36,012 nucleotides of DNA. Source: Gemmatimonadaceae bacterium (GTDB taxonomy: Bacteria; Gemmatimonadota; Gemmatimonadetes; Gemmatimonadales; Gemmatimonadaceae). The first letter of the stretch is position 1. Every line of letters starts with the position of its first letter. The DNA is taken from assembly GCA_025928335.1 (NCBI GenBank), contig JAICJQ010000022.1, forward strand, positions 1-36,012, written 5' to 3'. Below are positions 20,988 through 29,550 of the stretch, in pieces. A program made the position numbers and the translations under genes. Under the pieces are notes generated by a model that saw only the letters and a program-made list of their open reading frames with translations, was not told where the DNA came from and did not search any database.

Positions 20988-21671
20988 TCAACCGGCGAGC
21001 GAAGTTACGGAGACGCCGCTCTCGAGGGCGCGCGCGATAAATCCGCACACGTTTGCGACCGCGAACGAGATGCCGGACAGGTTGCGCTCTCGGGGTAGGT
21101 CGCCGATCGGTCGCGGAAAAATCGACGCGGTGGCGCACACGCCGCCGTGCTCGAGCCGCAACTCGAGTTCATCCCGCCCACATTGGGCGTCAGCGAGCAC
21201 GCCGAGCACACCGTCGAGCGAACCGGGCAAGAGCATGACACCCTCCGTCTCGCGCGGCGCCACGACGAGCACACGGCTTTCAGCGGCTGCGCGCGCGGCA
21301 GCGACGAGCCGTTCGCGATGCGCTGTATTCGCTGTGCCCAAGCTGAGATTGATAAGGTCGGCGCCGGCCGCGGCTGACCATTCGATCGCCTGCGCCAACA
21401 CCTCGGCGTTCGTCGTCAGATGGCGATGAAAGAGCTTCACGGGAATCAAGCGCGCATTGGGCGCCTTCTCGTGGATTGCCGCCGCCACCGCGGTGCCGTG
21501 ACCGATTCGATCGATCGCGTCGTCGCTCTCACTCGAGAACGAGCAGCCGGCGAGCACGGTCGCTCCGGCGAGATGCGGATGATCCGCGTGAATGCCGCTG
21601 TCGAGTACCGCGATGGTCACGCCGCGCCCGCTCCGATCGGCGAACGGTGCATCGCTCAATCGGAACCGCAC
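20988..21671 (-). CDS. qhpE: Subtilisin-like (S8) protease, predicted QhpC leader peptidase
   Basis: This 227-residue compact S8 protease has no signal peptide. The triad is Asp 24 in VTIAVLDSGIHADHP, His 58 in IGHGTAVAAA, and Ser 202 in SGISFAVANV. INLSLGTAN matches the substrate-binding strand. The segment where subtilisins carry the oxyanion-hole Asn (usually AAGN) reads VLVVAPRETEG, so that Asn appears to be replaced. In characterised qhp systems QhpE removes the N-terminal leader of the cross-linked gamma subunit; its small size, lack of export signal and place two bases after qhpF and within the cluster support the same role here. It is the last qhp gene of the run. Confidence 0.85.
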   Translation of the reverse strand: MRFRLSDAPFADRSGRGVTIAVLDSGIHADHPHLAGATVLAGCSFSSESDDAIDRIGHGTAVAAAIHEKAPNARLIPVKLFHRHLTTNAEVLAQAIEWSAAAGADLINLSLGTANTAHRERLVAAARAAAESRVLVVAPRETEGVMLLPGSLDGVLGVLADAQCGRDELELRLEHGGVCATASIFPRPIGDLPRERNLSGISFAVANVCGFIARALESGVSVTSLAG

Positions 21672-21673
21672 GG

Positions 21674-23416
21674 TCAGTGAACGATCTGCAGGCGTGTCGC
21701 GAACAGCTCAGCGAACGATGAATGCGTCCCGGCGAGCGTCGAGGCCGGCGCCGCGTGTTCCTTGATCCCGCCGTTCTCCAGGATGAGGATTCGGTCGGCG
21801 CGACGCGCCAGCTCCTGCCGGTGCGTGATGATGATCGTCGTTCGGCCGAACATGGCTGCCTCATATCCGGACGCGACCTGCGCTTCCGTCGCCGGATCGA
21901 GCGCTCCAGTTGCTTCGTCGAGCACGAGGACCGCCGGATTCGCCAACAATGCCCGCGCCACTGCGACGCGCTGCCGCTCGCCGGCCGACAAGCTGCGTCC
22001 ACGTTCCCCGGCGCTCGTCGCGAGTCCCTCGGGCAAGCGAGCGAGCAGCGATTGCAGCCCGGCGCGCTCCGCGGCCTCGTGGACTTCGGCGTCGGTCGCA
22101 TTCGGCCGCGCATAGCGAATGTTCTCGGCGATCGTCGCGTTGAACACGAATGGATCCTGATCGACGACCAACACCCAGTCGCGCAGCTCGCGAAGCCGAA
22201 GCGAGCGAACGTCGATACCGTCGAGCAGGACGCGGCCGCTCGCCGGATCGAGCTGACGGACCAGCAGCTCGGCGATCGTCGATTTGCCCTCGCCGCTCTT
22301 TCCGACGATCGCCACTCGCTCGCCGGGAGAGATGTCGACCGACACGCGATCGAGCACGCCGTCGCCGCGGCCGAACGAATAACTCACGTCGTCGAGCGTC
22401 ACGCGCCCGCGAACACTCTCGAGCGAGATCGGTGTCGGCGTCTCCACGACATCGGGCGTCGCGTCGAGAACTTCGCTCACTCGGCGGAGCGACACCCGCG
22501 CCGACGCGAAGCTGGCGTACAATCCCATCAGCGATTGGATCGGCCAGACGAGACGCATCTGGTACGCAATGAAGGCGACGAGCGTGCCCATCGTGATCGA
22601 ATGATCGATCACCCGCATGCCGCCGACGAAAAACACGGCGCCGCTTCCCGCGGCGAGAAGCAACCCCGGCACTCCACCGGAGAGATAGGTGAGCCGCCGC
22701 ATCTTCATCAAGGCGTCGATGAAGCGATCGTTGTGCTCCCGGAAATGCTGCGCCGCGCGATCCTGCGCGTTGAATCCGACGATCACGCGCATGCCGAGCA
22801 GCGACTCGATGAGAAAGCTTCCGACGTCCGCGCTGCGGTCGCGGACCCCGGTCATCGCGCCGTCGAGACGCGAACGATACCGCACGAGCGCCCACAACGC
22901 CGCCGGCAAGATCGCGAAGCTGACGAGAAAGAGCGCGCGGTCGAGTCGGAAGAGAATCACAATGCTCCCGACGAGGAACACCATGCTGCCGAGCCACGAC
23001 AGCGCGATCTCGGCGGCCACGCGCTGAATTTCGGCGATGTCCGAGTTGAGGCGCGCCGCGATCTGTCCGACCGGCATCGTCGCGTAGAATCGCGGTGACA
23101 GACGGTGCAGTTGGCGGAAGAGCGCCAGTCGCATGTCGAACAGGATGTCCGCCGACGCGCGCGTGTAGATCAAACCGCTCACGACATTGAGCACGAACGT
23201 GCCGATCGTGAGCACCGCGAACTGTCCGATGACGGCGACGAGTGCCGCGCGGTCCCGCCCGATCAGGGCGCGATCGATGATGATGCGCGACAGGTACGGG
23301 ATATAGAGCGCCGCCACCGTGCTGGCGAGCGCGAAGAGGACGACGATCGACAGCCGTCGCCACTGCGGCGCCACGTGCCCCAGCGCGCGGCGCAGATCCT
23401 TGTCCAACAGCGGCAC
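21674..23416 (-). CDS. qhpF: ABC exporter for the modified QHNDH gamma subunit
   Basis: The 580-residue half-transporter has about six membrane helices in residues 20-310 and an ATPase domain at about 335-560. Walker A is GKSGEGKST (372-380), the signature is LSAGERQRV (476 onward), Walker B is VLVLDE (496-501), and the H-loop His is in IIITHRQELA. It lacks an N-terminal C39 peptidase domain, consistent with leader cleavage by the separate QhpE. In studied systems QhpF carries cross-linked QhpC across the inner membrane. The start is seven bases after the qhpB stop, and qhpE starts two bases after this gene ends, so the genes are tightly co-transcribed. General lipid-exporter homologues look similar; context decides the name. 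Confidence 0.85.
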   Translation of the reverse strand: MPLLDKDLRRALGHVAPQWRRLSIVVLFALASTVAALYIPYLSRIIIDRALIGRDRAALVAVIGQFAVLTIGTFVLNVVSGLIYTRASADILFDMRLALFRQLHRLSPRFYATMPVGQIAARLNSDIAEIQRVAAEIALSWLGSMVFLVGSIVILFRLDRALFLVSFAILPAALWALVRYRSRLDGAMTGVRDRSADVGSFLIESLLGMRVIVGFNAQDRAAQHFREHNDRFIDALMKMRRLTYLSGGVPGLLLAAGSGAVFFVGGMRVIDHSITMGTLVAFIAYQMRLVWPIQSLMGLYASFASARVSLRRVSEVLDATPDVVETPTPISLESVRGRVTLDDVSYSFGRGDGVLDRVSVDISPGERVAIVGKSGEGKSTIAELLVRQLDPASGRVLLDGIDVRSLRLRELRDWVLVVDQDPFVFNATIAENIRYARPNATDAEVHEAAERAGLQSLLARLPEGLATSAGERGRSLSAGERQRVAVARALLANPAVLVLDEATGALDPATEAQVASGYEAAMFGRTTIIITHRQELARRADRILILENGGIKEHAAPASTLAGTHSSFAELFATRLQIVH

Positions 23417-23423
23417 GTTCCCT

Positions 23424-24515
23424 CTACGGACGCATGGCTGGCACGATGACCACGTTGGTCATGTCCGCGCCGAGATTGACTTGGCCGAGATGCTTGAAGT
23501 CGGTCGTCGAGTAGCGGTCGATCGTCGAGCCGGCGGTCGTGATATAGAGCTGCGTGCCGTTCGAGCTGACGACGAGCCCCATCCGCGGTCGGCCCGGAAA
23601 TTCGGTCTTGCCGACCACGCGTCGTGAATCGAGATCGAACGTCCAGAACTGGTAGTTGCCGACTTCGCTGTGGATGCCGTAGGCCTTCTTGCGGTCGGGT
23701 GACAGCCGGAAGCTCACGGCCTGGCTCGGGCCGAGCGAATAGAAGTCCAACTGGCGGTTCACGAGATCCATCCGTGCCACGCCCATCTGCGTGCGGTGGT
23801 TCACGGGATCATTCGTCCGGAACAGGCCAGTGTAGAACCCCGGCTCCTCGTACACGTCGTATGGCAAGCCAAAGTTGATGCGGCCGAGTCCCTCCTCGAA
23901 CAACGTCTTCGAGATCTCCCAGCGGTCGACTTCCTTCAGTGACACCGCGTCGTAAATCAGGACGTCGTCCTGCGTGAAGAAGTACATCAGCTTCCCATCG
24001 GGCGAGAAGACGATCTGCGCTCCCTCACGCTCCTCGCCGCGCGGCCACGGAATCGTGTCCGTCACGCGGCGCGTCGCGAGGTCGTAGCGCACCAGCGTCG
24101 GCCCCCGCACCTCGTAGCGATCGGCGTGCTCCTGATACGCCTTCACGAGCAGGATCGCGAACCGCTCCTTCGGATCGAGGCTGAACCCCCACATCCGAAC
24201 CTTCGTGCTGTCTGTCGACAGCGTGAACACGCCGCTCGACTTTTTCGTGGCGAGATCGACGATCTCGACCTTCTCGTTACCCGGGTCGGTGAGATAGAGA
24301 TGCTTGCGATCGAACGACAGCGAGATGTCGGGGATGCCGAGCTGCGACTTGATCGTGTCCTTCACCTTCATCGTCGCCTCGTCGATCACCAGCACCTGCC
24401 GCGCGTACGTGCCGACGTACAGCGTACCGGTGCCACCGGACGGGACACTCTGACCAGCCGCTACAGCGATTGGCCACGCTACCGCTGTCATTCTGAGCGA
24501 AGCGAAGAACCTCAT
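23424..24515 (-). CDS. qhpB: QHNDH beta subunit (seven-bladed beta-propeller)
   Basis: The 363-residue product contains repeated YVTN/WD40-like blades across residues 30-360 (GTLYVGTYARQVLVIDEAT, SLSFDRKHLYLTDPG, VFSPDGKLMYFFTQDDVLIY, LVVSSNGTQLYITTAG), the fold of the periplasmic QHNDH beta subunit, which packs on the gamma subunit next to the quinone. ATG 24515 forms an ATGA overlap with the qhpC stop; a longer open frame reaches 24995 but would run through qhpC and qhpD and is rejected. The first ten residues (MRFFASLRMT) are encoded by a dispersed repeat, yet together with AVAWPIAVAAG they make a plausible short signal peptide. The insertion seems to have replaced or rebuilt the original N-terminus. 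Confidence 0.88.
   Translation of the reverse strand: MRFFASLRMTAVAWPIAVAAGQSVPSGGTGTLYVGTYARQVLVIDEATMKVKDTIKSQLGIPDISLSFDRKHLYLTDPGNEKVEIVDLATKKSSGVFTLSTDSTKVRMWGFSLDPKERFAILLVKAYQEHADRYEVRGPTLVRYDLATRRVTDTIPWPRGEEREGAQIVFSPDGKLMYFFTQDDVLIYDAVSLKEVDRWEISKTLFEEGLGRINFGLPYDVYEEPGFYTGLFRTNDPVNHRTQMGVARMDLVNRQLDFYSLGPSQAVSFRLSPDRKKAYGIHSEVGNYQFWTFDLDSRRVVGKTEFPGRPRMGLVVSSNGTQLYITTAGSTIDRYSTTDFKHLGQVNLGADMTNVVIVPAMRP
24486..24515 (-). repeat. Dispersed repeat unit forming the start of qhpB
   Basis: The plus-strand sequence TTCTGAGCGAAGCGAAGAAC, with its flanks, is a version of a short motif I know as extremely common in intergenic DNA of many soil and environmental bacteria. Its other frames give the tell-tale peptides RFFASLRMT and LRFAQNDS. 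Here it contains the qhpB ATG and the first ten codons. Confidence 0.6.
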
Positions 24516-24844
24516 GGGAACACCAAGTCGATCTTCCGCCAGTCCTTCTGCGCCGAGGCGCACTTCGCGGTCCAATCGGGCGCGTGGTTGTAGAGATCGG
24601 GCACGTGGGCTGGCCAGAAGCACGTGATGTGGCAGTCGAACAGATCGCGCTCCACCGGTTGGCAAAGGCCGGCCGTGCCTCCGTTCGAATCCACCTCCCA
24701 TCCCGGCGAGAACACGAACGAGCAGCCGAGGGGGACGTGCGGTCCCGTGGGACCACCCGGGCCCTGTTGCAGCGCGACGACGTCGTTCTGCAGCACACCC
24801 TCGATCCGCTGCGCCTTCTGGTTGATCGATTTGAGATGTCTCAT
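24512..24844 (-). CDS. qhpC: QHNDH gamma subunit precursor with CTQ and thioether cross-link sites
   Basis: The 110-residue peptide is the substrate of the maturation machinery. An N-terminal leader without a Sec signal (MRHLKSINQKAQRIEGVLQN) is followed by a Cys-rich core. Against the published gamma-subunit numbering, a constant offset of 34 places every cross-link residue: Cys41-Glu50 (7-16), Cys61-Asp67 (27-33, Asp being the catalytic base), Cys75-Asp83 (41-49), and Cys71-Trp77 (37-43), which form cysteine tryptophylquinone. One further cysteine, Cys94, has no partner in that scheme. Catalysis occurs in the periplasm: the quinone oxidises primary amines and passes electrons to the alpha-subunit hemes. 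The gene overlaps qhpD upstream and qhpB downstream, each by ATGA. Confidence 0.95.
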   Translation of the reverse strand: MRHLKSINQKAQRIEGVLQNDVVALQQGPGGPTGPHVPLGCSFVFSPGWEVDSNGGTAGLCQPVERDLFDCHITCFWPAHVPDLYNHAPDWTAKCASAQKDWRKIDLVFP

Positions 24845-26256
24845 GACAGGTGGGTAAGGAAGTCAGGCCGCTTTGTCGCCAACGTTCCGTACACTTCCAG
24901 ACAGGTATTCGTCCACGCGCGGATCCACTCGCAGTAATGCAGGTTCGGCTGCGTCGTCGTGCCGTACCGCGTGTGCGCCTCGTGATAGCAGCCACCGGCG
25001 CAGAGCGGGCGCGCCCAACAGGTGGAGCAGTCCGTCTTGTTGTCGATGTGATGTGTCTCGAGGAACGTCGCCTGCGCGGCGTGATCGACGCCGCTGAACA
25101 CGCTGCCCAGCTTGTGGCTGTCCGATCCCGCGAACCGATGGCAGAGTGCCACGTCGCCGTCCGTTGCCACGCCGAGCAGACCGAAGCCCGCGCCGCACGG
25201 ATGCGACTTACTCATTCCTTTGTGAATTTCCTCGAGCGTGTCCCGCACATTCGAGAAGCCGTGGCGCCGGCCGGCGATCGCTTCACTCAGATACTCGGCG
25301 GCAAGCGTCTGGAAGCCGGCGAGGAGCTGCTGGAATCCCAGATCCTCGATCGCGTACTCGCGCTGCCACGACGTCGTCACCGGCGCGAAACCGACCTCCC
25401 AGAAGCCGATCTCCTCGAACAGGTGCCGGTAGATCGAGACGACATCCAGATTCTGGCCCGTCAGCGTCACGCGCGCGCCGACAGGCTTCCGCCGGTGCCG
25501 CGCCAGCAAATCCTTGATGCGGGGCAGGATGATGTCGTAGCTGCCCATGCCATTCGAGAACACGCGGAACTTGTCCTGCTGCTCGCGCGCTCCGTCGATC
25601 GACACCGTGACGCCGACGTCGTTCTCGATGAACCAGTCCACGATCTCCTCGCGCAGCAGCGTCGCGTTCGTCGTCAGACTCGCGTTCACCTGCTTGCCGA
25701 GCTCCGCGCCGCGTTGCTTCGCGTAGGCGAGCGCCGACTTCAACATCTTGAAGTTGAGCAGCGTCTCGCCGCCAAAGAACGTGAGATTCACACTCGGCGA
25801 ATCGCCCGCTTCGGCGAACATGAAATCCACCGACTGTTTCGCCGTCGCTTCGTCCATGAATCGCGGCTTGGTCCCGCTCTCGACGATCCGGTCCTCGCCG
25901 TACTCGTAGCAGTACCCGCACGACAGATTGCACTTGCTCGTCACGTTGAGCACGAGCGTCTGGAGCGGAATGCTGCGCTTCGACTTGACGGAGGGGGGCG
26001 CGACCGGCGGCGCGACGACGCTATGGATCGCGCGCACGCCGAGCAGCTCGTCGATCGACGAGCGTACTTCGTCGCCGCTCCACCGCGCGCCGAGCGACTC
26101 GGCGAGCTCATTCGCCGTGCGGTCGCCGGTAGCGAGCCGCTCGAGGACGGCGTGCGACACGTCGTCGAGCTCCACGACCGCGGCCGACGGGACGAGATAC
26201 AGGTATCTCGCGTCGCCGCCCGAAAACGAGTGATACTCACCGCGACGAAGCATCAT
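24841..26256 (-). CDS. qhpD: Radical SAM/SPASM thioether-forming enzyme for QhpC
   Basis: The 471-residue enzyme makes the Cys-to-Asp/Glu thioether bonds in QhpC. Residues about 8-80 resemble a PqqD-like peptide-recognition (RRE) domain. The radical SAM cluster motif is CNLSCGYC (Cys 109, 113, 116), followed by LTFFGGETLLNF and VTVSIDG of the TIM barrel. The C-terminal SPASM region has cysteines at 354, 372, 410, 413, 419, 423, 442 and 452 for auxiliary iron-sulfur clusters (CGAGFGLLGVATDGDVALC, CSTCWARPLCAGGC). Its ATG overlaps the qhpA stop and its TGA overlaps the qhpC start, tying enzyme and substrate synthesis together. The cytoplasmic location agrees with modification before export. Confidence 0.95.
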   Translation of the reverse strand: MMLRRGEYHSFSGGDARYLYLVPSAAVVELDDVSHAVLERLATGDRTANELAESLGARWSGDEVRSSIDELLGVRAIHSVVAPPVAPPSVKSKRSIPLQTLVLNVTSKCNLSCGYCYEYGEDRIVESGTKPRFMDEATAKQSVDFMFAEAGDSPSVNLTFFGGETLLNFKMLKSALAYAKQRGAELGKQVNASLTTNATLLREEIVDWFIENDVGVTVSIDGAREQQDKFRVFSNGMGSYDIILPRIKDLLARHRRKPVGARVTLTGQNLDVVSIYRHLFEEIGFWEVGFAPVTTSWQREYAIEDLGFQQLLAGFQTLAAEYLSEAIAGRRHGFSNVRDTLEEIHKGMSKSHPCGAGFGLLGVATDGDVALCHRFAGSDSHKLGSVFSGVDHAAQATFLETHHIDNKTDCSTCWARPLCAGGCYHEAHTRYGTTTQPNLHYCEWIRAWTNTCLEVYGTLATKRPDFLTHLS

Positions 26257-28028
26257 GGCTGCGTTTGCCAGGGGACGAAGCGCACGTACAGCGGCACCGT
26301 GACGACGAGCAACGCCCGCGCCTTGAGCATTTTCGCATTCTTGCCGGGCGGCGTGTACGAGGCCACCGCCCAGACGTCGCCGACATTGTTCCGGCTCGAG
26401 CTGCGCTTGGGATTCGGCCCGTCGAGGCTCGGCGTGAACAAGCCATTCTGGTCGAGCGCGCCGACGAACTTCACATCATCGTCGTCGTACGTCACACCGT
26501 ACTCCTCGAGGTTCCATTTTGCCGGTACGCGTCCGATCTCGAGATCGTCGTCCGTGTCCGATTTGCCGTCCGGACCATTCCAGTACGCCATCGCATCGAA
26601 TTGCTGGAGCTGTTTCGGGAACACGGCGCCGCCCACGCGCGCTAACCCGGCGAGCGGGACGACCTTGATGCGATCGATCTTGTCGAAGACCACCGCCGCG
26701 TCGCGGAGCGATGCGCCGGACGCGTAGAGATCGCGCTTCCCGACGGCCGCGGCCGAATCCACGCTCAGCCGCACGGTAATTGAATCCGCCGTCGCGCGGA
26801 CGACATTGTCCACCGTCACGCCAGGCCCGAAGTCGATCGCATTCGCCGCGGCGCTTGGCAGATTCGCGCCAAAGATCGTCACGTCCTGACTACGCGAACC
26901 AACGTGCAGTGCTCGTGGGGCGATGCCCGCGATCACCGGGCTGCCCGACACACGACGCGCCGTCACGTCCATGCCAATTTCATCATAGCCGCCCTGGAAC
27001 CAGCGGCCCGACATCTCGTCCCAACCAGGCTCGACGAACATCACTTCGCGTAAGCCGACGCTGTCGCGTGCGCGCTGCGCCGGATCGGTCGATCGGCCGC
27101 GCCATTGAAAACCGGTGTAGACGATCGATTTGCCGGTGCGGTGGACGACGGCGCCGCCGTCAGCGTATCGATAGGTCGTCTGCGTCGTGAATTCGCCGTC
27201 GCTCGCGCCTTTCGCGATCGTGACACGGCCGTAGAAGGCACCGCGCCCCGGCTCGTTGCCGCTCAGCAGCCACGTGCCCTCGAGGTGCGGCGTGCGCATC
27301 GTCGCCGACCACGCCGTCCATTCCGGCGTGCGGAGCGGGAAGACGCGGGACAGATGGTTGACCGCCAACTCCATCGGATGCAGTTGCGGAACACCGCTGT
27401 CGTTCACCGCGGGACCGAAGCGACGAAACGCCTGGAAGTCCGCGTCGGGATACAGCGCGCGATGCGTCGCGAGCAGAAGATTCCACTCGTCGCGTGTGCG
27501 CCGCTGCGAAATGACACGACCCATCGAGTGACAGGCGCGGCACGCCGTCTCGGTGCGCGCGTCCGCCGTGTAGCGGTAATCGATCATGCGACGTTCCGGC
27601 TCGAAGCGCGCGGGCTTCATCTCCGCCGGCGCCAAGCCTTGGTGGTCGCTCAAATATCGGACGATGGTCCGTGCGTCCTTCGGATCGAGGTCGAGATGGT
27701 GGAGCCCGACCATGCGACGCACCGACATCTCCCACCCTTCGGGCGTCTTCCGTTCGAATGAGATGCGCTGCACGACGCCGGCACTATCCTGCTTATGGCA
27801 CCCGATGCAGTTGGCTTTGATCGCGCGCTCGGCGATCGGAAATCCATGCGTCGTGTCGGGCGCCGCGCCTCCGGCACGACCGCCTCCCGCCCCGGCACCT
27901 CGGCCGCCGCCGCCGCGCTGGGCCTGCGCAGCAGCAAGTGGAAGCAGCGTCGACGCGAGCAGCACAACGCCGAGTGCAGCACGACTCCCCCTTCCGCCGC
28001 GGCCCTCTGCAAACCTTGCACGCGACAT
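26253..28028 (-). CDS. qhpA: QHNDH alpha subunit, di-heme cytochrome c
   Basis: The 591-residue protein has a signal peptide (ALGVVLLASTLLPLAAAQAQ), then a Gly/Arg-rich linker (about 38-55). Domain 1 is a di-heme cytochrome c with CIGCH (74-78) and CRACH (163-167). The rest (about 190-591) forms the beta-sheet domains of the QHNDH alpha subunit (FQWRGRSTDPAQRARDSVGL, IFGANLPSAAANAIDFGPGV, VTYDDDDVKFVGALDQNG). The hemes take electrons from the CTQ of the gamma subunit and pass them to a cytochrome or copper protein. GGAG lies ten bases before the ATG. Its stop overlaps the qhpD start. It begins 55 bases after qhpG ends. The Gly-rich N-terminal linker seems unusual for the family. Confidence 0.95.
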   Translation of the reverse strand: MSRARFAEGRGGRGSRAALGVVLLASTLLPLAAAQAQRGGGGRGAGAGGGRAGGAAPDTTHGFPIAERAIKANCIGCHKQDSAGVVQRISFERKTPEGWEMSVRRMVGLHHLDLDPKDARTIVRYLSDHQGLAPAEMKPARFEPERRMIDYRYTADARTETACRACHSMGRVISQRRTRDEWNLLLATHRALYPDADFQAFRRFGPAVNDSGVPQLHPMELAVNHLSRVFPLRTPEWTAWSATMRTPHLEGTWLLSGNEPGRGAFYGRVTIAKGASDGEFTTQTTYRYADGGAVVHRTGKSIVYTGFQWRGRSTDPAQRARDSVGLREVMFVEPGWDEMSGRWFQGGYDEIGMDVTARRVSGSPVIAGIAPRALHVGSRSQDVTIFGANLPSAAANAIDFGPGVTVDNVVRATADSITVRLSVDSAAAVGKRDLYASGASLRDAAVVFDKIDRIKVVPLAGLARVGGAVFPKQLQQFDAMAYWNGPDGKSDTDDDLEIGRVPAKWNLEEYGVTYDDDDVKFVGALDQNGLFTPSLDGPNPKRSSSRNNVGDVWAVASYTPPGKNAKMLKARALLVVTVPLYVRFVPWQTQP

Positions 28029-28083: not shown

Positions 28084-29550
28084 TCAAGCAAAACTGAGCA
28101 TCTCGAGGCCGACCAGCGCCGAGAGCGCCCCGAGAAAATCGGGGAGGGGAACGACGCTCGCCGCCCGCGAGTATGCGTCGTACAGGTCCGGCACCTGCTC
28201 GTGGTGGGGAGCGAGTCGGGTGATGGCCAGGAGGTCCACGTTGCGGCAGTAGCGAACACCTTGCGGAATCGCTGCCGATGCCAGGTGCTGCTCCAAAATC
28301 ACCCGATTGCCACGCACCACGGCCCGTTCGACGACGCGCAACGAATCGCCGATGCGGAGGTGCATGGCCGGCCGACGCTTCAATTCCTCGAATGCGTCGC
28401 GCACGCGGTGGTCGCCACGCACCACCGCGGCGTCGAGCTCGAAATCGGCGGCGGCGATTTCCTCCGTCCGGGCATGCCAGAACGCGCTGTCATGCGCCCC
28501 GGAGGCGTCTTGCGCTATCCGCGCCGCCTGAGTTTGCAGCTCCGCGTACATGCCATGCTCGCGCTCCTCGAACAGATCGCGCGCCGCGCCAGCCAACGAT
28601 CTCTCGTCCAGCGCCGTGTTCGCAACGACGGCCGCGAGCCACGCGGAGGCCAGAGCCTTCTTGACGCCGAACGACGACAGCGGATCGATGAACGACGCCG
28701 CGTCACCAACGAGGAGCAACCCGTCGTCGCTGACCCGATGCGACCGATACGGCGACGCGTCGCACCCCCAACACGGTTCGACCAACGTCGCGTCGCGCAC
28801 CAACTCGGCAATGAGTCTTGTTCGCGAAAGCTCCGCGCGATACGCGCGATCGAGTGCGTCGCGCGTTGGGACGTCGGTCTGACGCGGGTCGAGCATCACC
28901 GTGACGTATCGGCGGCTCAACGAGACCGGCACCGACCAGGCCCATCCATCGTCATAGCTCTCGACGAGGGTGTGCGTGGCGTATGCGTCGTCGGCCCACG
29001 CATCGTTTTCCCATACGCCGACGACGGCTGTCGTGCGTGCCGCTTGTTCCGGTCGGCGATACCCGCCTCGCGCAACGACGCCGGCGCGTCCGCTGCAATC
29101 AAGCACCCAACGCGCCTGGCACGTCGTTGGTCCGTCGTTCGAATCGTAGTTCACGACCCAGCTGTCGCCATGCCGCTTCGCTCCACGCACCGTCGCGCCG
29201 CGAACAACGAACGCGCCCGCTGCCTGCGCAGAATCGCCGAGCAACTCGTCGAATCGCGCACGGTCCACCTGGTACCCGGCGCCGCCGGCGAAGGGCTCTG
29301 ACCTCCGATCCTCGCGGCCCCACTGCACTGTGTTCCCGAGCGCGCGTACGAATCCGGCGGCGTCGATCACGCTGCGTACGCCAAGAGCGTCGAGCAGCTT
29401 TGTGCAGCTCGGCGGAAGCGATTCGGCGATCGAACGCTTCGAGGCTGCGCGGGCGATCAGCACGACGCTGCGATCCCACTGCGCGAGCAACCGCGCTGCG
29501 GCCGCGCCTGCTGGTCCACCACCGATGACGACGACGTCGGCCGAGAGCAT
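28084..29550 (-). CDS. qhpG: FAD-dependent monooxygenase for CTQ biogenesis
   Basis: The 488-residue flavoprotein has an N-terminal FAD-binding motif (VVVIGGGPAGAAAARLLA), the region QVDRARFDELL, and the second FAD motif LLLVGDAASFIDPLSSFGVK, a layout shared with tryptophan halogenases and group A hydroxylases. In the characterised system QhpG hydroxylates the tryptophan of QhpC that becomes the quinone, acting on the already thioether-linked peptide. The C-terminal part (about 380-488) is helical and less conserved. Unlike the arrangement I recall in Paracoccus (A-D-C-B-E-F-G), here qhpG comes first. A good promoter sits right before the ATG. Its location in the cluster distinguishes it from an ordinary halogenase-like enzyme. 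Confidence 0.88.
   Translation of the reverse strand: MLSADVVVIGGGPAGAAAARLLAQWDRSVVLIARAASKRSIAESLPPSCTKLLDALGVRSVIDAAGFVRALGNTVQWGREDRRSEPFAGGAGYQVDRARFDELLGDSAQAAGAFVVRGATVRGAKRHGDSWVVNYDSNDGPTTCQARWVLDCSGRAGVVARGGYRRPEQAARTTAVVGVWENDAWADDAYATHTLVESYDDGWAWSVPVSLSRRYVTVMLDPRQTDVPTRDALDRAYRAELSRTRLIAELVRDATLVEPCWGCDASPYRSHRVSDDGLLLVGDAASFIDPLSSFGVKKALASAWLAAVVANTALDERSLAGAARDLFEEREHGMYAELQTQAARIAQDASGAHDSAFWHARTEEIAAADFELDAAVVRGDHRVRDAFEELKRRPAMHLRIGDSLRVVERAVVRGNRVILEQHLASAAIPQGVRYCRNVDLLAITRLAPHHEQVPDLYDAYSRAASVVPLPDFLGALSALVGLEMLSFA

Follow-up and report, generated by a model that had tools for sequence, protein, structure and literature searches.

Known gamma subunits and the qhp locus

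The described enzymes closest to the one studied here are the quinohemoprotein amine dehydrogenases (QHNDH) of Pseudomonas putida (1JMX, 1JMZ) and Paracoccus denitrificans (1JJU, 1PBY). In the available text of PMC7876137 and PMC8172795, the cross-linked pairs of their gamma subunit, QhpC, are given as C7/E16, C27/D33, C41/D49 and C37/W43, and QhpD is described as joining the Cys sulfur to a methylene in the side chain of an Asp or Glu further downstream. According to PMC7876137, QhpC with all its cross-links formed retains a single free Cys in the published system. A related radical SAM/SPASM enzyme likewise forms Cys-to-Asp thioethers in ranthipeptides such as freyrasin (PapA/PapB), with six Cys-Asp links according to the available part of PMC8172795. 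Unlike QhpC, ranthipeptides are natural-product peptides and not enzyme subunits, and they are without the CTQ.

The window, a stretch of 36,012 nucleotides from a Gemmatimonadaceae bacterium (contig JAICJQ010000022.1), contains an ORF that very likely encodes a standard gamma-subunit precursor. Profile searches with its product revealed matches to PF08992 (113.8 bits, cut-off 25, E 3.7e-33) and NF037958 (123.2 bits, cut-off 50, E 3.8e-36), and the source genome held one PF08992 match. The gene is encoded with qhpA, B, D, E, F and G in the minus-strand order qhpG, A, D, C, B, F, E, a complete set in which the assignments of qhpB, qhpF and qhpE are weaker (Table 1). Reading by eye revealed that the qhpC ATG overlaps the qhpD stop, and the qhpC stop overlaps the qhpB start, each within an ATGA. 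The beta subunit is divergent, with a partial TIGR03907 match of 54 bits below the cut-off of 223, whereas alpha, gamma, QhpD and QhpG all lie above their cut-offs. QhpE scored 163.9 bits against NF049966 as an ORF and 165.8 bits in the genome search (cut-off 165), and QhpD scored 279 bits against the PapB model, under the cut-off of 340.

Table 1. Features of the qhp locus and of the QhpC precursor in the window
Feature	Position	Strand	Basis
qhpE, subtilisin-like leader protease	20988..21671	-	NF049966 at cut-off
qhpF, ABC exporter	21674..23416	-	position and ABC domains
qhpB, Cys-free beta subunit, 363 aa counted from ATG	23424..24515	-	mainly position; partial TIGR03907 match
qhpC, gamma subunit precursor, 110 aa	24512..24844	-	profile matches, alignment to solved gamma chains
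qhpD, radical SAM/SPASM thioether maturase	24841..26256	-	TIGR03906, 543 bits, cut-off 453; carries additional Cys452
qhpA, alpha subunit	26253..28028	-	all Cys within two CXXCH haem motifs
qhpG, flavoprotein Trp hydroxylase	28084..29550	-	NF049967, 251 bits, cut-off 240
Predicted leader, residues 1-24 (MRHLKSINQKAQRIEGVLQNDVVA)	24773..24844	-	prediction from the motif VVA or VVG before L or M
Predicted N-terminal extension of mature chain, residues 25-34	24743..24772	-	prediction; between motif and equivalent of mature position 1
Cys41 ... Glu50, first thioether pair (known C7-E16)	24695..24724	-	alignment
Cys61 ... Asp67, second thioether pair (known C27-D33)	24644..24664	-	alignment
Cys71 ... 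Trp77, CTQ pair (known C37-W43)	24614..24634	-	alignment
Cys75 ... Asp83, third thioether pair (known C41-D49)	24596..24622	-	alignment
Cys95 (mature 61), extra cysteine	24560..24562	-	translation, family alignment
Asp101 (mature 67), second candidate to pair with Cys95	24542..24544	-	conservation
Asp106 (mature 72), to which Cys95 is predicted to link	24527..24529	-	co-occurrence in relatives

Cross-link register, relatives and the N-terminus

Alignment with phmmer placed QhpC residues 39-110 ungapped on positions 5-76 of both 1jmx_G (E 3.8e-22) and 1jju_C (E 1.3e-21), so that the eight known cross-link residues coincide at an offset of 34. The preliminary description had placed the residues of all four cross-links in exact spacing at this offset, and the alignment confirmed this register with no residue out of place. 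Mature numbering is used below for residues compared between relatives. Besides the shared cross-link residues, the ungapped core and the same maturation genes, the window protein differs from the solved gamma chains by a Cys at mature 61 (Ala61 in both), an Asp at 72 (Gly72 or Gln72 there), a Phe for Trp42, and a stretch from the cleavage motif to Cys7 that is longer by about ten residues.

A survey of relatives revealed a QhpC match in 75 of the 395 genomes drawn from the phylum of the window, in 29/396 genomes of the phylum of G395 (Acidobacteriota, going by the title of its locus), and in 5/200 genomes of the phylum of G397, which is Pseudomonadota-like by its sequences. Matches above the cut-off were found in 12/248 and 4/195 genomes of two orders; the order of G774 gave 2/10, and two classes gave 1/229 and 5/190. 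No relatives were found among viral contigs. The genome-contig set held the best 80 of 550 relatives and is biased to the window's type, and the plasmid set consisted of 26 records, four of which were read. The 210 homologous rows obtained overlap between collections and include many near-copies; they leave out L075, with a broken N-terminal half, and L209 and L213, which were below the cut-off with no QhpC found. Adding six later loci and the window to the 210-row data and collapsing the whole produced 126 distinct cores. The nearest named relatives are Gemmatimonadetes, and QhpC of Gemmatimonadota and Acidobacteriota share with the window protein Cys61 together with Asp or Glu at 72 and mostly the N-terminal insertion, with otherwise ordinary divergence; no characterised member was found among them.

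Several individual sequences of this collection can be mentioned. In L075 (G227:C10), QhpC is recognisable only from position 38, with an unrelated frame before it, and the part with Cys61 and Asp72 is kept. An acidobacterial-type QhpC with Cys61 and Asp72 is present on a sphingomonad replicon (L156, Novosphingobium sp. RL4 plasmid NZ_CP141945.1), where the PLSDB table lists no annotated features over the stretch concerned; this suggests transfer between phyla. Two contigs titled Bifidobacterium breve (L094) and Bordetella parapertussis (L154) carry acidobacterial-type qhp genes, and these titles are probably mislabelled bins, the L154 genome (G398) falling in the Acidobacteriota sample.

Among the known cross-link residues, C7, E16, D33, C37, C41, W43 and D49 were present in 210/210 rows and C27 in 209/210. 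The one loss, a Trp at Cys27 in L074 (G392:C605), is either a sequencing error or real. Position 42, adjoining the CTQ tryptophan, is Gly instead of Phe, Tyr or Trp in L186 (G686). Judged by alignment, the register match of the eight residues is homology, far above chance and usual for the QhpC family. The earlier expectation of an intact CTQ precursor with three thioethers is likewise supported by the register, by the conservation of the eight residues and by the adjacent qhpD, qhpG, qhpE and qhpF, and the protein is probably functional as an ordinary family member.

The position of the leader cleavage site could be assessed from a conserved motif. On the Pseudomonas-type precursor (L195), the PDB chains begin at residue 29, directly after DVVA, in agreement with the 28-residue leader given for Paracoccus and Pseudomonas in the available text of PMC7876137. 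In the window QhpC, DVVA occupies residues 21-24 and is followed by LQQG. The conserved motif is VVA↓L (↓, presumed cleavage), with VVA↓M in Pseudomonas; a simple motif search found VVA↓L or VVG↓L in 156 of the 187 rows with Cys at mature 61 (Cys61 rows) and close variants in nearly all others. The leader would thus probably end after Ala24, at about 24 residues, and the extra 10 residues would belong to the mature chain, since the insertion sits after the conserved motif. A leader of 34 residues cleaved just before Pro35, as given by the Cys7-based offset alone, is very unlikely, since Pro would follow the cut in 179/187 Cys61 rows with a start codon found, compared with Met in 18/22 of the other rows. 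The motif or a close variant also lies upstream of that site in nearly all Cys61 rows, and L166, one of the bridge sequences considered below, reads VVG↓MQQPLGC with no insertion. The preliminary description was right that 34 residues precede the equivalent of mature position 1 and that the Paracoccus leader has 28, but the longer leader it proposed is unsupported given the DVVA motif at 21-24. If the motif nearest upstream of Cys7 is used, leaders predicted for 185 Cys61 rows range from 20 to 64 residues (median 32), with the Cys7 equivalent at mature position 7 to 23 (median 17), and the 22 rows without Cys61 have predicted leaders of 25-28 and the Cys7 equivalent at 7-8, some leader values of 25 being artefacts of start codons picked too far in by the script. 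L002, whose contig begins within the gene and which has both residues 61 and 72, was left out of the leader and distinct-core counts.

The extra cysteine and a candidate fourth thioether

The fifth cysteine of the core, numbered 94 in the preliminary description, is Cys95, as WTAKC spans residues 91-95 and residue 94 is Lys. That description gave it no known partner; none could be found in the texts available, but the residue is conserved across relatives and is better read as half of a conserved Cys61 and Asp/Glu72 pair. Among the 210 rows, 188 have Cys61, and all 188 are acidic at position 72 (Asp 178, Glu 10), whereas the 22 rows without it (Ala 17, Val 4, Ser 1 at 61) have an acid at 72 in 0/22 (Gln 13, Gly 8, Asn 1). 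The distinct cores gave the same division, with an acid at 72 in 103/103 having Cys61 and in 0/23 lacking it; these 23 are of the Pseudomonadota type, like both solved structures, with Gln, Gly or Asn at 72. Glu replaces Asp in 2/103 Cys61 cores, so acidity is kept through the exchange. Among the columns with an acid in at least 90% of the Cys61 group, 72 alone combined a constant acid in this group with none in the other. Position 36 is nearly as discriminating, but the bridges have Gly or Ala there. The Cys/acid pair, specific to the clade and conserved, is what is new here, and on sequence grounds it yields a specific prediction.

A disulfide partner within the enzyme is unlikely, since no conserved spare Cys could be found in its subunits. 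Core cysteines occur only at 7, 27, 37, 41 and 61 (126 distinct cores), and no Cys was found in the QhpC leader or tail in 209 rows. In the window, QhpB has no Cys and QhpA has only the four haem Cys. Beyond these, no column of QhpA in the Cys61 group reaches 10% Cys (n=76), and the best QhpB column has 16 Cys (n=138). The gamma subunit is packed between alpha and beta, which speaks for an inter-chain link of Cys61, joining it to QhpA or QhpB by a disulfide or thioether, or to a second gamma chain by a disulfide. It is also described as one of three subunits of the heterotrimer in the available text of PMC7876137. The missing spare cysteines of QhpA and QhpB argue against such a link, an argument that leaves a gamma-gamma disulfide and a thioether to another subunit's acid unaffected; overall, an inter-chain link appears very improbable.

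The reading preferred here is that QhpD makes a fourth thioether in the Cys61 clade, predicted between Cys95 and Asp106 (mature 61-72), to which we assign a probability of about one half. It would match the chemistry and direction of QhpD, the acceptor lying downstream of the Cys in the three known pairs at +9, +6 and +8; the spacing from Cys95 is +11 to Asp106 and +6 to Asp101, and a Cys95-Asp101 link would match as well. Asp101 (mature 67) as the acceptor has the same spacing as the known C27-D33 and is slightly stricter in company with Cys61, being present in 103/103 Cys61 cores and replaced by Asn in 2/23 others. However, Asp67 is kept in 21/23 cores without Cys61, which points to another role, and a link to it leaves the always-acidic 72 unexplained. 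Asp106 is favored over Asp101 because position 72 loses its acid whenever Cys61 is absent and position 67 does not, and the link to Asp101 is considered improbable.

Structure prediction added a hint at most. An AlphaFold2 gamma model built from 36/40 selected locus sequences and the window was poor (mean pLDDT 55.5, pTM 0.42), as was a second from 17/66 distinct locus cores and the window (mean pLDDT 49.1, pTM 0.34). The first model has residue 61 in one helix, 72 in the next and 67 between them, just beyond the end of the first helix, a placement that would keep Cys61 and Asp67 apart; in the second model the first helix is present and the second absent. Foldseek/VIA-align matched no PDB chain to the first, poor model.

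Several points count against the Cys95-Asp106 link. Shared descent could account for the co-occurrence, since the Cys61 label switches only once on the QhpD tree, and nine positions in all separate the two clades. None of the three known acceptors shows an Asp/Glu exchange in the 210 rows, whereas 72 does, and the +11 spacing exceeds all three known ones. Literature on QHNDH, QhpD/QhpC, tryptophylquinone and ranthipeptides, represented mostly by papers outside subscription, contained no report of a fifth Cys of the gamma subunit in the parts available.

Bridge sequences, ancestry and significance

G774 and G1428, from the acidobacterial sample and its order, each carry two divergent qhpC copies (L166 and L193 in G774; L214 and L215 in G1428), which bridge the two groups. 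Nine positions have no residue common to the Cys61 and proteobacterial types. At these, L166 is of the proteobacterial type at 20, 32, 36, 38, 39, 42 and 73, which leaves 61 and 72 as its sole positions of the Cys61 type; L214 agrees with it at all nine, and L193 and L215 are mixed, both with Cys61 and an acid at 72. Positions 61 and 72 thus stay together while the other markers change. This bears on the reading that Cys61 is a conserved unmodified thiol, serving packing or a partner outside QhpA/B/C, with the acid at 72 a separately inherited clade marker. The further positions that divide the clades and the single change on the QhpD tree are in its favor, but the bridges retain only 61 and 72 among nine markers. 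Moreover, an invariant unpaired Cys in a periplasmic protein across two phyla would be unusual, and the unmodified thiol is regarded as unlikely, though less so than the alternatives above.

The bridges also disposed of two other candidates. Cys452 of QhpD, after the SPASM cysteines, is present in 134/136 of the Cys61 group and is Gly in 22/22 others and two bridges; it could be an extra cluster ligand. As a requirement for Cys61 it was ruled out, since the two exceptions are the bridges L166 and L193, which combine Cys61 and Asp72 with a Gly at this position of QhpD. A link of Phe42 (Trp in the solved enzymes) to Cys61 was ruled out because the bridges combine Trp42 with Cys61. A metal site of His72, His80 and His87 (window protein numbering) was ruled out, as these positions vary among relatives.

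On the QhpD tree, rooted at the midpoint, the Cys61 label switches once. L166/L214 are sister to the proteobacterial clade of 25, which has 100/100 support, and L193/L215 are sister to the remaining sequences. If the midpoint root holds, the ancestor already had the Cys61/acid72 pair, which then disappeared in a single loss on the branch to the Paracoccus and Pseudomonas enzymes; a root inside the proteobacterial clade would instead mean one gain. Since one joint change on the tree amounts to about one independent event, the co-occurrence percentages overstate the evidence. The independent strands are the strict conservation of 61 and 72 in the Cys61 group, the acidity kept through Asp/Glu exchange and the joint relaxation afterwards. 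A tentative extension, which we hold with somewhat less confidence than the fourth thioether itself, is that the three known thioethers are a reduced set. The ancestral gamma subunit would have had a fourth (Cys61-Asp/Glu72), kept in all sampled Gemmatimonadota and Acidobacteriota QhpC, and the studied lineage would have lost donor and acceptor jointly.

In the proposed maturation, QhpD would make the three standard Cys-to-Asp/Glu thioethers and, in the Cys61 clade, would add the fourth between Cys95 and the Asp106 side chain, so that the C-terminal segment is fastened to the helix before it. QhpG would next dihydroxylate Trp77, QhpE would cleave after Ala24, QhpF would export the product, and the exported gamma subunit would join QhpA and QhpB in the periplasm with its CTQ cofactor.

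Small as it is, QhpC is very heavily cross-linked, and it serves as a model for radical SAM enzymes acting on protein-sized, not short-peptide, substrates. A fourth thioether, if true, would give the ancestral-type gamma subunit five internal covalent links including the CTQ, and its restriction to one clade would mean that the target list of QhpD can expand or contract in evolution. It would also offer a natural pair, with and without the link, for the acceptor choice of QhpD, and the textbook enzyme would then be unrepresentative of most QhpC in this collection.
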